The translations under genes and the position numbers were made by a program. A DNA stretch of 64,000 nucleotides from Nodosilinea nodulosa PCC 7104. Its GTDB lineage: Bacteria > Cyanobacteriota > Cyanobacteriia > Phormidesmidales > Phormidesmidaceae. Numbering within the stretch: position 1 is the first letter of the stretch; every line of letters begins with the position of its first letter. Location: contig NZ_JH976537.1 in the NCBI RefSeq assembly GCF_000309385.1, positions 957,426 through 1,021,425 of the forward strand. The letters are read 5' to 3'. Positions 43,324 through 49,347 of this stretch are shown in pieces. Below the pieces are notes generated by a model. That model saw only the letters and a list, made by a program, of their open reading frames with translations. It made no database searches and had not been told where the DNA came from.

Positions 43324-43932
43324 TTAGACCATGCGGCCATTGGGTTCCAGCAGCGCCAGCGTAAATGTAGGTGGTTCAATGACCAGCAGCGTTTCATCCC
43401 CCCGGCGAGCCAGCTTGGCCGCAATATCCAGCACCTTCACCGCATCGGTATCCTGCTTAAAAAAGCTGTAGTAGCGATTGTTGTAAGTCAGCGCCATTAG
43501 GGGCTTGGTCACATCGGGCACCTGCAGGCGGCAGGTTTGGTAAGCGTTCTCGTCGGCCACCATCAGACAGGGCTGAGGCCCCAGCATTGGCCGAATACCA
43601 TAGCCCTGCTGCCGGGCGGGGGGCGCATAGCGGGCACCGACCTCGTGGGCCCATACCGCATAGCCCCGGCGCGTTTGAGTGATAGCGGCAATGGAATCTC
43701 GCTTGCCTAAACGCATCACCACATCGATGGCCTTACGGGCCTCGGGTACGACTTTGAGAAAGCTGTAGAACTGGTTATCTACGTAGATGGCCGACAGGCG
43801 GTGGTCGGTATCGGGTACCCGAATGTGGCAAGGGGTATACAGGTCGCGGTCAAACAGAAGCTTACAGGCAATGGCTGAGGTTGACGCAGCCGTCAGGGAA
43901 GCCAGGGAATCGAGGCGGGGGGAGACGCTCAT
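43324..43932 (-). CDS. conserved hypothetical protein with internal duplication
   Basis: 202 residues from ATG 43932 (MSVSPRLDSLASLTAAS). Two copies of a unit of about 65 residues are visible. CHIRVPDTDHRLSAIYVDNQ with FYSFLKVV, KAIDVVMRLGKRD and AVWAHE in the first lines up with CRLQVPDVTKPLMALTYNNR with YYSFFKQD, KVLDIAAKLARRGDE and ALLEPNG in the second. The unit is mixed alpha/beta with no catalytic motif that I recognise. The frame is open upstream to 44211 but this region has no protein-like composition. Divergent from chlD. Confidence 0.65.
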   Translation of the reverse strand: MSVSPRLDSLASLTAASTSAIACKLLFDRDLYTPCHIRVPDTDHRLSAIYVDNQFYSFLKVVPEARKAIDVVMRLGKRDSIAAITQTRRGYAVWAHEVGARYAPPARQQGYGIRPMLGPQPCLMVADENAYQTCRLQVPDVTKPLMALTYNNRYYSFFKQDTDAVKVLDIAAKLARRGDETLLVIEPPTFTLALLEPNGRMV

Positions 43933-44267
43933 AGGGCAGGAGAAGTTGCGGTGAGTGGGGCCGTCACCAGGGCCGTAACCCCAGCAACACAGTAGGTTTA
44001 CCCAATAGCATGGGGGATGGTCAGTAATTTCCCAATGTTGAAATAACGGAGGTTTCGCGGCCTCAAAAAAGGGTTGGCCAGGGAAAATACGGAGACTTTT
44101 GGCTGTTCGCAACACAACGCAACACAGCACGGCTCCCGGGCGGATCGCTGGCCCGCCGCTCAGCTCCCAGCTCTGCTTTAGCCAGGTCAAGCGAAGCGTA
44201 GGGTTGGGCAATTCCTGATATGGTGAAAGTCTGAACCCTTGCCGATCTTGAGTACGCTGCCCCCGCT
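43933..44267. other. divergent promoter region upstream of chlD
   Basis: 335 bases with no gene and no repeat that I see; it must hold the promoters of chlD (plus) and the duplicated-unit protein (minus). Confidence 0.45.
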
Positions 44268-46313
44268 ATGACAGCCACAGTAGATTCCCCAATTCCGGTT
44301 GTGTTTCCCCTGGCGGCGGTGGTCGAGCAGGGGGCGATCAAAATGGCCCTGCTGCTGGCGGCGGTGGACCCCAGCCTGGGCGGGGCGGTGATTGCCGGAC
44401 GTCGGGGCACCGCTAAATCGGTGATGGCTCGGGCGCTGCATCAGCTCTTGCCCCCCATCGAAGTGATTGAGGGGTCCTGCTGCAATGCCGACCCCGCCGC
44501 CCCGCCGCTGTGGGACGATCAAACCCGCGATCGCTTCGGCGACAGTTTTGATGTTGCCGACCTGCCTACCCGCGTTATTCCGGCCCCCTTTATACAGATT
44601 CCGCTTGGGGTGACCGAAGATCGGCTGTTGGGCTCCGTCGATGTGGCCCGCTCCATTCAGGCTGGCGAGAGCGTGTTTCAGCCGGGGCTGCTGGCCGCCT
44701 CCAATCGGGGGGTGCTCTACGTCGACGACATCAACCTGCTTGACGATCAGGTGGCCAACCTGCTGCTGGCTGCCCTCACCGCCCGCCGCAACCAGATTGA
44801 GCGGGAAGGGCTGAGTTTTCAGCACCCCTGCGAGCCGCTGCTGATCGCCACCTACAACCCTGAAGCCGGGCCGCTGCGGCAGCATTTGTTAGACCGCATT
44901 GCGATCGCCCTCTCCGCCGACGGAGCCATGACCCTAGGCGATCGAGTCACGGCAGTGGAGCAATCCACCCAGTTTGCCAACGATCCCCAGGCGGTGATCG
45001 CCGCCTACGCCGACGAAATCGACGCCCTCAGGACCCAGATCATTCTGGCGCGGGAATGGCTCAAGGATGTCACCATCAGCCGCGAGCAAATTCAGTACCT
45101 GGTTACCGAGGCCCTGCGGGGAGGCATTCAGGGCCACCGGGCCGAGCTGTTTGCGGTGCGGGTAGCCAAGGCCCACGCCGCCCTAGAGGGCCGCGCCGAG
45201 GTGACAGCCGACGACCTGCGAGTGGCGGTGGAGCTGGTGATTGTGCCCCGCTCTCTGCTGCCCCAGGAGCCACCCGACGAACCGCCGCCGCCGCCCCCGC
45301 CGCCGCCCTCCGACCCCGACCAGGAAGAACCCCAGGACAATACTGAGGAGCAAGACACAGACGAGGACGACGAGGACGATACCCCCGACGAAGACGACAT
45401 CCCCCCCAGCATCCCTGAGGAGTTTATCTTCGACCCAGAGGGCGTCATCATTGACCCATCAATGCTGCTGTTTGCTCAAACCATGGGTCGCCAGGGCAAG
45501 TCGGGCAAAGCTAACCTGATTTTTTCCGAAGAGCGGGGCCGCTACATCAAGCCCTTTTTGCCCCAGGGGCCGGTGCGCCGGATTGCGGTAGATGCCACCC
45601 TCAGGGCCGCCGCCCCCTACCAAAAATCTCGCCGCGAGCGCGAACCCGGTCGCCGGGTGATCGTGGAGCAGGGCGATATTCGCGCCAAGCGCCTGGCCCG
45701 CAAAGCGGGTTCGCTGATTATTTTTGTCGTCGATGCCTCAGGCTCAATGGCGCTAAACCGGATGCAGTCGGCCAAGGGGGCGGTGCTGGAACTACTGACC
45801 GAGGCCTACCAAAACCGCGACCAGGTGGCGCTCATTCCATTTCGGGGCGAACAGGCGGAGGTGCTGCTGCCCCCGACTCGCTCCATTGCCATGGCGCGGC
45901 GGCGGCTAGAGCGCATGCCCTGCGGCGGCGGCTCGCCCCTGGCCCACGGTCTGACCCAGGCGGTACGGGTGGGCATCAATGCCCAGCAGTCGGGGGATGT
46001 GGGCAGCGTGGTGATCGTGGCGATTACCGACGGTCGCGGCAATGTGCCCCTGGCCCGCTCCCTGGGCGAAATGCCCGAGCCCGACGCCCCTAAGCCCGAC
46101 ATCAAGCAGGAACTGCTGGAGATTGCCGGTCGCATTCGCGGCGTTGGTTATCAACTCCTGATTATTGATACTGAGCGCAAGTTTGTCTCCACTGGATTCG
46201 GTAAAGAGTTGGCCAAGACCGCCGGAGGCCGCTACTACCAGCTGCCCAAGGCCACTGACCAGGCCATTGCCGCCATGGCCCGAGGGGCGATCGCCGATAT
46301 GAAGACTGGGTAA
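44268..46313 (+). CDS. chlD: magnesium chelatase subunit D
   Basis: 681 residues. ChlD, with ChlI and ChlH, inserts Mg2+ into protoporphyrin IX, the first committed step to chlorophyll. The N-terminal about 330 residues are a ChlI-like AAA+ module ([15 protein letters not shown], a modified Walker A, and [13 protein letters not shown]). A linker of about 80 residues is extreme: Pro runs then Asp/Glu runs ([10 protein letters not shown]-like, then [14 protein letters not shown]). The C-terminal VWA domain carries the MIDAS motif [13 protein letters not shown]. Length matches cyanobacterial ChlD. Monocistronic. Confidence 0.96.
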
Positions 46314-46406: not shown

Positions 46407-48341
46407 ATGGCCCACATCTGCTGTGCACCACCGCGAGTCGCCATGGAACGTCGAGTGTCATCGTTATCCCAGGGGCAACGCCTGCTCGCCGCTATCATGA
46501 TTACCGACGCGGTGGGGTTTAGCACCCGCATGTCGGTCGATGAAGAGCGCACGCTAAGGCTGATCGATCGCGACCTTACCCTAATTGGCGACATCTGCCG
46601 AGAGTTTGGCGGTACGGTGCTCAAGTCCACTGGCGACGGCCTGCTGATTTATTTCCTCAGCGCGGTTGAGGCGGTCTCCTGCGGGCTAGAGATGCAGCGA
46701 CGGCTGGTCGATCTGGCCGAAGGCCTGGAGCCTCACCAGTACCTGGATCACCGCATTGGCATTCACCTGGGCGATATTCTGGTCAGCGAGCAGGATGTGA
46801 TGGGCAACGGGGTAAACATTACCGCGCGGCTGCAAACCTACTCCAAACCCCGAGGCCTGTGTGTATCGCGCACCATCTACGACGTGGTCAAGGCCCGGCT
46901 GAATCTGCACACTACCTTTTTGGGGCCGCTGCACCTCAAAAACATCGAAGAGCCGGTGCCCGCCTACCAGCTGGCCCTCCAGGCCGAAGAGACCGAGGCG
47001 GGGCCGCAGGGGTCTGAGGATCATACCTGCACTCTGCCCATGACCACCGAGGCCCTGCTGGCCAACGCCGTGCGCACCCTCAGTACCCACACCCACAGCC
47101 TGCGGATTAAAAAACTCGTGTTTGCCACCTACCAGCAGGCCTGGGAGAACGACCCAAAGGTGTTGGAGCAGTTTGATCTGCGGGTGCTGCTGCTCTCGCT
47201 GCGCGATCGCTATCCCGCCCTGGCCGATCTGGAAGACCAGCTGCAGCGAGTGGTAGCTGGGCTAAATCGCCGAGATTTTTACAACGAAGTAACTGAGATT
47301 ATTCTCAAGCAGCTCCAGCCCTGGTACGGGCGATCGCTGTTTCAAAATTCTGAAACCGCCGATCCTGAGTTTACTCAGCTGACGGTGCGATCGCTGGAAG
47401 AACGCTGCCAGGCCATTGCCGAAACGTTCGACCAAAGCCCCGACGCGCTGCGGCTGCGCAAGCTCATCCACTGTCTCTGCCACGGCGGCTGGGAGAACGA
47501 CCCCACCTGCCTTAACCAAATCTATTTGCCAGGGCTGATTCAGCAGACCTTAACCATGGCCCCCACCACCCAGGACCTACGCTATCGGCTGGGCCGTATT
47601 GTTAAACACCTCAACCGACGGCAGCAGTACACCCGCTTGGCCAACCAAATTGTCTTGGGCTTTCAGCCGTTGTACCAAAGCCAGCCGGAGGCGTTATCCG
47701 GTGCTACGGCCCTGGTCGAATCGACAGCACTAGGGGATGCTGCGGCTCTGGCCGAACCATCCGGCCCCTCAGTCCAGAGCGTTGAGGGAGGCTATACCAC
47801 CCTCACCAGTTTGGCTGGACCTGATCAGCCCGCCGATTTGACCACCCTCCACGGTACGCTCTCCCACCCCCTGAGCTTTGAGACTGAAAATAGTGGTCCC
47901 CGGCACGATCGCTCGTCCCTGTTTGACCTGCGGAGTGAAATTCTTCAGTACGCCAACCCGCTGCGGGCCAAAATTCTGCTGTACTCTTGCCTGTACGGCC
48001 CCTTCGGCTACACCTCGCAAGACTGGTCTAACCTCAATCGCCGCACCCTCAACGATTTACTTCAGCAAACCTTTGAATATTGCCCCACCTATACTGATTT
48101 AGACAGTAAGCTATCCATTATTGCCCACTGCCTAGGCCGGGCCGGCGACGGCGGGCAGGCGGCTAGCGCCATTACCCAAGCCATGCGGGCCTACTATCCC
48201 CAGGACCCTAACGCAGCGCTAGAGCCTGCGGGAGTATCTGTCCAGAGTCAGTCATCCCCCCTTGAAAAGGGCCGGGAGTTAACTAACCTCAGCGATCGCC
48301 CTGCCGTAGTGGCCCAATCCTCCGTCCGCTCCTCTGCCTAA
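46407..48341 (+). CDS. class III adenylate cyclase with three C-terminal helical modules
   Basis: 644 residues, cytoplasmic. The cyclase homology domain (about 28-190) has both metal aspartates (D34 in MITDAVGFS, D77 in KSTGDGLL). Lys73 and D130 fit adenine recognition, and Asn137 and Arg141 (VNITARL) fit ribose/transition-state roles, so cAMP rather than cGMP is predicted. After an MTTEALLANAVRTL linker come three related helical modules of about 75 residues at about 233-307, 349-423 and 519-597. They share WENDPxxL, PT/PA-xxDLxxxL and LNRRxxY-type positions and are separated by low-complexity linkers. Their role is unknown; regulation or partner binding is inference. ATG 46443 is an alternative start. 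A pentapeptide gene begins 13 nt after the stop. Confidence 0.88.
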   Translation: MAHICCAPPRVAMERRVSSLSQGQRLLAAIMITDAVGFSTRMSVDEERTLRLIDRDLTLIGDICREFGGTVLKSTGDGLLIYFLSAVEAVSCGLEMQRRLVDLAEGLEPHQYLDHRIGIHLGDILVSEQDVMGNGVNITARLQTYSKPRGLCVSRTIYDVVKARLNLHTTFLGPLHLKNIEEPVPAYQLALQAEETEAGPQGSEDHTCTLPMTTEALLANAVRTLSTHTHSLRIKKLVFATYQQAWENDPKVLEQFDLRVLLLSLRDRYPALADLEDQLQRVVAGLNRRDFYNEVTEIILKQLQPWYGRSLFQNSETADPEFTQLTVRSLEERCQAIAETFDQSPDALRLRKLIHCLCHGGWENDPTCLNQIYLPGLIQQTLTMAPTTQDLRYRLGRIVKHLNRRQQYTRLANQIVLGFQPLYQSQPEALSGATALVESTALGDAAALAEPSGPSVQSVEGGYTTLTSLAGPDQPADLTTLHGTLSHPLSFETENSGPRHDRSSLFDLRSEILQYANPLRAKILLYSCLYGPFGYTSQDWSNLNRRTLNDLLQQTFEYCPTYTDLDSKLSIIAHCLGRAGDGGQAASAITQAMRAYYPQDPNAALEPAGVSVQSQSSPLEKGRELTNLSDRPAVVAQSSVRSSA

Positions 48342-48354
48342 GCCCCCTATCAAT

Positions 48355-49347
48355 ATGAACGCCCGTGAACTGCTCGATGCCTACGCCCGTGGCGAGATGG
48401 ATTTTAAGGGTGAGGCCTTAGTTGGCATTGATCTGGCTGGAGCCGATCTGATTGGGGCCAACATGGTGCAGGCCGACCTCGAAAACGCCAACCTGATGCT
48501 GGCCTTTCTCACCCGAGTCAGGTTTCGTCAGGCCAACCTCTCGCGGGCGCGCCTGGGTGGAGCCAACCTCAATCAGGCGGACCTGTCGGCGGCCATGCTG
48601 CGCGATGCCGACCTGCACGGCGCCAGCCTGCAAGGAGCCGACTTACGCAGTGCCAACATGGCTCTGGCCGACCTGCTAGACGCCAACCTCACTGGAGCCG
48701 ACCTGCGCAATGCCGACCTCAGCGGTGCTAACCTGACCGGAGCCTGTCTGCGAGGAGCTAACCTGCGCCAGGAAAACCGCAAATATGCCACCAACCTGCG
48801 CGGGGCAAAGCTGCGCCTGGCCGATTTGCGAGGCACTAACCTATCGGGTGCCGATCTGGCCTACGTTGACCTCAGCGGGGCCAACCTGAGCGAAGCGGTG
48901 CTGCGCGATGCCAGCTTAAAGGGGGCCAACCTGCAAGGGGCCATCTTGTGCAACGCCAACCTCAGCGATGTCGACCTCAGCCAGAGCTGTTTAGAGTCGG
49001 CGGATCTGACCTATTGTCGCTTTCCCCGCAGCAACCTCAGTCAGGCAAACCTCAACCGTGCCAATGCCAGGGGGGCCGACTTTAGCGATGCCGTTATGGC
49101 CCTGGCCAAAATGGATGACTGCGACCTGGCCAACTCTCGGTTTAGCCGGGCCGACCTGAGCCGGGTAAGCCTGCGCCGATCTGTTCTTACCAAAGCCCTA
49201 CTGGTCGAAGCCTACCTAGGCCGGGCCGATCTCACCGATAGCAACTTGAGCGAGGCTATTCTAGAGCGAGCCGAAATCAGCAGTACCACGCTGAGCAACG
49301 TCATTCTGACCGGAGCCACCATGCCCGATGGTAGTATTCACGGATAG
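48355..49347 (+). CDS. pentapeptide repeat protein
   Basis: 330 residues, almost all A(D/N)LxX repeats, e.g. LIGANMVQADLENANLMLAF and LSGANLTGACLRGANLRQEN, predicting a long right-handed quadrilateral beta helix. One break near residue 140 (RQENRKYATNL) separates two blades. There is no signal peptide or catalytic domain. Such proteins are very common in cyanobacteria and usually of unknown function. The 13-nt gap to the cyclase gene suggests co-transcription, so it may be a partner or effector of that signalling protein (inference). Confidence 0.9.
   Translation: MNARELLDAYARGEMDFKGEALVGIDLAGADLIGANMVQADLENANLMLAFLTRVRFRQANLSRARLGGANLNQADLSAAMLRDADLHGASLQGADLRSANMALADLLDANLTGADLRNADLSGANLTGACLRGANLRQENRKYATNLRGAKLRLADLRGTNLSGADLAYVDLSGANLSEAVLRDASLKGANLQGAILCNANLSDVDLSQSCLESADLTYCRFPRSNLSQANLNRANARGADFSDAVMALAKMDDCDLANSRFSRADLSRVSLRRSVLTKALLVEAYLGRADLTDSNLSEAILERAEISSTTLSNVILTGATMPDGSIHG

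Follow-up and report, generated by a model that had tools for sequence, protein, structure and literature searches.

The window, by which we mean the whole 64,000-nucleotide stretch of DNA analysed, carries at 46407..48341 (+) a gene for a 644-residue fusion protein in which a class III adenylate cyclase domain (C) is followed by three helical units, two of a subtype that we call A and one of a subtype that we call B (architecture C-A-A-B). The open reading frame of the preliminary description at these positions was confirmed. The ATG used may be 12 codons early (46407-46443), since Met13 is closer to the starts of some homologous open frames; those at loci L061 and L068 start only about 10 residues ahead of the cyclase domain. 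A second gene on the same strand, starting 13 bases past the stop of the fusion gene, encodes a pentapeptide-repeat protein (PRP) of 330 residues (48355..49347, +), which matches PF00805 in 8 stretches (Pfam Pentapeptide, E = 1.3e-74) and thereby belongs to the pentapeptide-repeat superfamily, whose members carry A(D/N)LXX repeats in tandem, at least eight of them. Between 46250 and 49500 there are two promoter-like sites (shuffles: 1.0 +/- 0.9), and no terminator-like site was found there. A gene for a ChlD-like magnesium chelatase subunit (44268-46313, +) ends 93 bases upstream of the fusion gene, on the same strand, and probably lies outside the system described below. For an open reading frame at 43324-44211 (-), neither Pfam nor NCBIfam gave a match; judged by eye, it belongs with a family located near the array of units, on the opposite strand, in 15 of 95 loci.

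The cyclase catalytic domain spans residues ~20-195 (46464..46991, +) and is identified by Pfam, by solved relatives and by its conserved residues. The protein scores 30.4 bits against PF00211 (cut-off 21.9), placing the domain among the class III cyclases by homology, and the nearest solved relative is PDB 3mr7 (E = 1.1e-26). The preliminary description called the domain apparently complete, and all six canonical catalytic residues are indeed kept: D34, K73, D77, D130, N137, and R141 are identical in every gap-free row of an alignment of 50 distinct array-linked cyclase domains, one row having a gap at D34 and K73. Following the mammalian pattern, we take D34 and D77 to be the metal-binding Asp, K73 and D130 the purine-binding Lys and Asp, and N137 and R141 the transition-state Asn and Arg. 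Judged by these residues, the cyclase is catalytically complete and looks active.

Unit 1 (subtype A, residues ~218-310, 47058..47336, +) and unit 2 (subtype A, residues ~334-428, 47406..47690, +) are separated by a low-complexity linker (47694..47918, +) from unit 3 (subtype B, residues ~505-603, 47919..48215, +); six helices are predicted in each of the first two. The claim of three diverged copies of about 75 residues thus stands as to homology and not as to extent, the units being ~95-100 residues long and beginning earlier. The alignment score between units 1 and 2 was 120, compared with 24.5 +/- 4.3 for shuffled sequences, and was reached by none of 2000 shuffles; the score between units 2 and 3 was 71 (0/2000 shuffles as high) and that between units 1 and 3 was 44 (3/2000), ruling out chance or low complexity as the source of the repeat. 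An iterated unit profile, from which the boundaries were taken (shifted by 9 residues preceding the ATG), picked up 142 units among 50 open reading frames from the first 58 loci. Units 1 and 2 are assigned by this profile as well as by the shuffles, and unit 3 by profile comparison and the structural model. Because subtype A (104 sequences) matches subtype B (52 sequences) in a profile-profile comparison with probability 98.7 and E = 3.8e-16 over 91 columns, we regard A and B units as true copies. The WENDP and LNRRxxY positions, first described as common to all three copies, are shared by units 1 and 2 only, and unit 3 is of a distinct subtype. The consensus of subtype A is RIKKLL...WENDP...PT..L...L....LNR..Y; that of subtype B is FDLR.EIM.YTNPLRAKILLFS.LY.PF....DW, also written FDLRxEIxxYxNPLRAKILLxSxLYxPF...DW.

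An AlphaFold2 model of unit 2, built on an alignment with 103 other units, has six helices (mean pLDDT 92.4, pTM 0.84), and a model of the 390-residue array predicts the same helix series in all three units (pTM 0.44 overall). The structural check proposed beforehand therefore returned one common predicted helix pattern. The linkers between units are predicted to be disordered, as their low complexity had suggested: pLDDT falls below 50 at residues 97-110, 212-235, 240-259, and 261-278 of the 390, and is mostly below 50 in the linker between units 2 and 3. In the model the array is a set of beads on a string, and the mutual placement of the beads is not fixed by it. The preliminary description had named two outcomes that would speak against a new unit, different folds of the segments or a match to a domain such as TPR or HEAT, and neither was found.

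The further claim that the unit fits no named domain held when Pfam and NCBIfam were run on the window protein and 20 diverse relatives, and Pfam on 104 single units. At E up to 1, Pfam returned for the window protein only Guanylate_cyc (residues 29-187, E = 3.7e-07, above cut-off), and the NCBIfam matches lie in or mostly in the cyclase domain. Among the first 25 of 117 families ordered by members, no Pfam family was common to more than five of the 104 units at E up to 1, the commonest scattered match being DUF4110 (5 units, best E = 0.00057). PHROGs, searched with the window protein only, has no family for the unit. Against solved structures, the sequence profile (A4) gave only chance-like coiled-coil or helical matches (best E = 0.04), Foldseek gave no PDB match at E below 1 (the lowest E was 1.0 with the unit as query and 2.0 with the array), and the VIA fold search gave a best Z of 3.8. 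A pyrin-only entry, at rank 2 in the Foldseek search with the unit, which has six predicted helices, is a weak match (E = 1.5, TM = 0.37). The missing fold match hints weakly at a new fold and does not prove one. On sequence criteria, the unit is an undescribed helical domain family of two subtypes, which has no family in the libraries searched.

Scanned with a single peptide pattern from the B unit, a limited probe of the reach outside the cyanobacteria, the genomes of 84,980 species gave 92 confirmed places; all of the 80 listed are cyanobacterial by title. The array had no match in plasmid and phage records (limits E = 0.001 and 0.01). Over 188 loci the architectures are AAB (65), C-AAB (64), AB (29), C-AAAB (11), A alone (5), B alone (2), kinase-AAB (2), kinase-AB (1), AA (1), and a truncated C-A (1). 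These counts, like those by architecture given below, are redundant between collections, the gene in the window being in twice (L001 and L164); the set of 80 loci and the 292-genome sample below are less redundant than the sets of 188 and 95 loci. The cyclase is present in 36 of the 80 listed loci (27 C-AAB and 9 C-AAAB) and absent in 44, so that it belongs to part of the family and is not, as first supposed, the defining part of a new architecture; the constant partner of the array is the PRP. On a quick tree of 54 PRP rows, the cyclase label requires three changes, whether gain or loss.

The units recur beside other output domains, as the preliminary description had expected: a Ser/Thr kinase, ComFB, and a WD40 protein. 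A protein kinase is fused to units at L056 and L173 (by Pfam) and at L179 (by similarity to L056). Six proteins of 227-378 residues, from five genomes (L213, L216, L219, L221, L222, and L223), have an A unit fused ahead of a ComFB domain; in these five genomes the PRP ortholog lies elsewhere. An 833-residue open frame (L172:1970-4468, +) joins an A unit to a CHAT-like middle part, at 15.5 bits below the CHAT protease cut-off of 24, and to WD40 repeats. At eight further loci (L169-L171, L174-L176, L053, and L058), A or B units share an unnamed C-terminal region, for which Pfam at E = 0.1 returned no family in L169, L174, and L058; by eye, it has a helical part and mostly also an alpha/beta part (AIAxLxNxxLxPKGI...LHVxLES...HGRxxGxK). 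This range of fusions has the modularity typical of an adaptor domain.

The association of the array with the PRP appears first in gene order. In a set of 95 loci, partly redundant between collections and assembled with no preselection of a partner, 88 have a member of the PRP family at position +1, on the strand of the array, and the second most conserved neighbour, the ChlD-like gene at -1, is found in 25. The scan keyed to the array alone gives the same picture, with the PRP immediately downstream in 78 of the 80 listed loci; the contigs of the other two stop 8 and 62 bases past the array. Among the matches listed, the gap between array and PRP at the 78 loci has a median of 26 nt, with one above 200, and stop and start overlap by four bases (ATGA) at six of the 78, which together suggest that array and PRP are made together. 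The length of the PRP is nearly fixed: of the same 78 listed matches, 54 have 330 residues and another 18 fall within 329-334 (72/78 in total), the remaining six being cut, mis-started, or differing. Mean column identity of the PRP is 67% in 54 rows, with residues 81-140 best conserved, and the array sequences are far more divergent. Because of this difference, the PRP may have other, more constraining partners.

Broken down by architecture, the PRP gene is downstream in 64/64 C-AAB loci, 10/11 C-AAAB loci (the sequence of the miss ends at the array), 63/65 AAB, 25/29 AB, and 1/2 B loci. Of the four A-B proteins with no PRP downstream, three had room for it, and one of these has a PRP on the other side. 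The PRP is downstream in none of the kinase-fused (0/3), A-only (0/5), AA (0/1), and truncated C-A (0/1) loci, among which one kinase-fused locus has only 664 bases of sequence beyond it and one A-only locus is a broken remnant. Since kinase-fused, A-only, and AA proteins have no PRP downstream, a PRP gene linked to the array is not required for A beads to act.

Joint inheritance was assessed in 292 genomes drawn evenly over the phylum; the scans for unit A, unit B, and the PRP (ortholog defined by a profile match at E <= 1e-70) were taken as one sample, since their handles and total agree. Unit A was found in 78 genomes, unit B in 76, and the PRP ortholog in 74. All 74 PRP genomes have both A and B, and 214 of the 292 have neither unit A nor PRP. 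Four genomes have A and no PRP, and hold only fragments or frames with stops: a 59-residue frame (G076), a 32-residue match in an 83-residue frame (G169), a match with two stops (G207), and a remnant split over two frames (G280). The two B genomes beyond the 74 are G207, with its stops in the A match, and G313, which has no PRP and whose B match (C1:2728916-2729197, -), interrupted by six stops, is a decayed unit. These exceptions argue for the link between array and PRP, because the genomes that have no PRP hold only broken units. A Fisher value of 4e-65 for co-occurrence of A and PRP is descriptive only, because the genomes are related and it overstates their independence. Some members lacking both genes occur inside genera (e.g., g41, g47, and g69). 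The PRP lies within 4 kb of the nearer unit, A or B, in 67 of the 74 genomes, the distance in four of the genomes examined (G105, G055, G327, and G166) being taken from the mutually nearest matches of unit and PRP, which are not always the best-scoring ones. In the other seven (G191, G142, G126, G107, G225, G138, and G292), PRP and units are unlinked, either distant or on another contig, and both are kept. Genomic distribution of this kind suggests that array and PRP work as a pair.

On balance we lean towards the view, drawn from gene order and joint inheritance, that the array serves as an adaptor, docking on the PRP rod and bringing with it the fused enzyme, here the adenylate cyclase. The upstream protein would supply six-helix beads, one to three of type A and a terminal one of type B, on flexible linkers, and the downstream protein a stiff rod, a pentapeptide beta-helix whose length hardly varies. 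The beads would dock on the rod, the B bead and the rod forming the conserved contact, and whatever is fused to the beads would be carried to the site of action of the rod. The B bead is the likeliest contact because its presence tracks that of the PRP most strictly (76 vs. 74 genomes). In many lineages the beads have no catalytic domain fused to them, and in some a Ser/Thr kinase bears them; for the lineage of the window, the expectation is that arrays bound to the rod would produce cAMP locally, or would do so only once assembled. We infer the docking, the control of the cyclase by docking, and the physiological role, including the site of action. The preliminary description had proposed a docking or sensing scaffold, and docking is the better guess for the array.

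The main rival holds that array and PRP belong to one pathway and make no contact, the array binding some other, unlinked target and the PRP acting before or after it. We regard this as rather unlikely, although linkage and co-occurrence show a functional tie only, and the A-only and kinase-fused proteins have no linked PRP gene. What weighs against it is the close coupling described above, namely the ATGA overlap in 6 of 78 loci and the median gap of 26 nt among the matches listed, together with the finding that only broken arrays remain where the PRP is gone.

EADs are the best-known bacterial adaptors with such modular fusions, and the unit might also be a homotypic EAD or death-like adaptor of a defence or cell-death system that recruits cyclase, kinase, and WD40 or CHAT-like effectors. 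A small, all-helical, non-enzymatic unit beside varied signalling domains agrees with this, as does the presence in some genomes of two or more proteins with the unit, and it follows the EAD logic set out in the accessible portions of PMC7159879 and PMC8195603. Like death-like adaptors of this type (PF19955, EAD1), A and B are small helical units shuffled among signalling enzymes; unlike them, they have a fixed operon partner and no detectable EAD1 homology. EAD1 was the EAD family compared: hhalign against 13 cyanobacterial EAD1 domains gave probabilities of only 2.7 (A) and 0.6 (B), so that no kinship with EAD1 was found, and EAD1 has no match in the genome of the window. PADLOC matches of the window protein, including weak ones to PycC, lie in the cyclase domain only, the array has no match in the phage or plasmid records searched, and one fixed partner is kept over distant lineages and not swapped. 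An origin of the unit in such a system is accordingly improbable in our judgement.

Slightly less probable again, and much less so than docking on the rod, is the reading in which the array mainly serves to regulate or oligomerise the cyclase, as a sensing scaffold, with the PRP as a passenger. Cyclase and array do form one protein in 64 CAAB and 11 CAAAB open reading frames of the redundant set, and in 36 of the 80 listed loci; cyclase-free arrays are no rarer (the redundant set has 65 AAB and 29 AB, and they make up 44 of the 80 listed loci), and the PRP stays where the cyclase is absent (63/65 AAB and 25/29 AB). That an ordinary TPR, HEAT, or ARM repeat was misread as new is very hard to credit: the units are all-helical and in tandem, and weak matches exist to ARM (one of 20 relatives, E = 0.0083), HEAT (one of 20, E = 0.034), and TPR (three of 104 units, best E = 0.031), but none of the three models matches the window protein at E up to 1, no family occurs in more than five of the 104 units (first 25 of 117 families), structure searches gave no PDB match at E below 1 and a best VIA Z of 3.8, and the prediction is of separate six-helix beads on disordered linkers, the absent fold match itself excluding nothing.

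Docking of the array on the PRP rod can be placed within a larger proposal that we put forward tentatively, with somewhat less confidence than the docking: a cyanobacteria-wide, obligate two-protein system may consist of a bead domain (A and B) and one fixed PRP of ~330 residues, serving as adaptor for cAMP synthesis, kinases, c-di-nucleotide receptors, and a WD40 protein. We rate the pair a system of its own kind whose proposed mode, scaffolded signalling, is familiar. The window protein shares with known class III adenylate cyclases (PF00211; 3mr7) the whole catalytic domain with its six canonical residues, and differs from them in its C-terminal bead array and its pentapeptide partner gene. 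The downstream gene is, like those of HglK, HetL, Alr5209, and other cyanobacterial PRPs, a plain pentapeptide-repeat protein, and stands apart in being one particular ortholog of ~330 residues that is inherited together with a helical array. For Synechocystis, slr1819 is a possible PRP. The ComFB domain of the A-unit fusions is that of the ComFB/CdgR c-di-nucleotide receptors, which bind c-di-AMP and c-di-GMP; the fusions differ in the added A unit and their length of 227-378 residues, the studied Slr1970 having a monomer mass of 20.4 kDa (from partial text of PMC12313861).

Of the known pentapeptide-repeat sequences, 26.9% are from cyanobacteria, where, according to the sections of PMC8145042 at hand, the biochemical functions of PRPs are almost completely unknown. 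One unnamed PRP is in a co-occurrence module with a kinase in the excerpted PMC5862535. The PRP of PMC7464499, as far as its available text goes, is another protein, with eight repeats and a signal peptide. A literature search, with most subscription journals outside it, found no description of the bead array, its cyclase architecture, or the array-PRP pair. If the proposal is right, the PRP would be the hub of a second-messenger signalling scaffold, and the pair would give a first handle on the role of this rod-shaped protein. The fused domains would name its signalling outputs (cAMP synthesis, phosphorylation, and c-di-nucleotide binding), and a PRP with a co-inherited partner would turn the open question of PRP function into a matter of binding and knock-out experiments in laboratory cyanobacteria. 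With the unit, the annotation of the phylum would also gain a domain family that has no name yet, subtype A being present in 78 of 292 genomes.

Within its own genome, the cyclase domain has its nearest relatives in two larger proteins, which we read by eye; their identities to it over the domain are 58% and 48%. In the first (L007:2285-4321, -), a Ser/Thr kinase comes after the domain, and a different short repeat (C...L.RCIGPMA...) stands in two copies at the C-terminus. The second, a protein of 1380 residues encoded on a second contig (L008:1396-5538, -), has an N-terminal segment ahead of the cyclase domain; beyond the domain come a region resembling an NTPase, a short stretch of pentapeptide-like sequence, and WD40 repeats.
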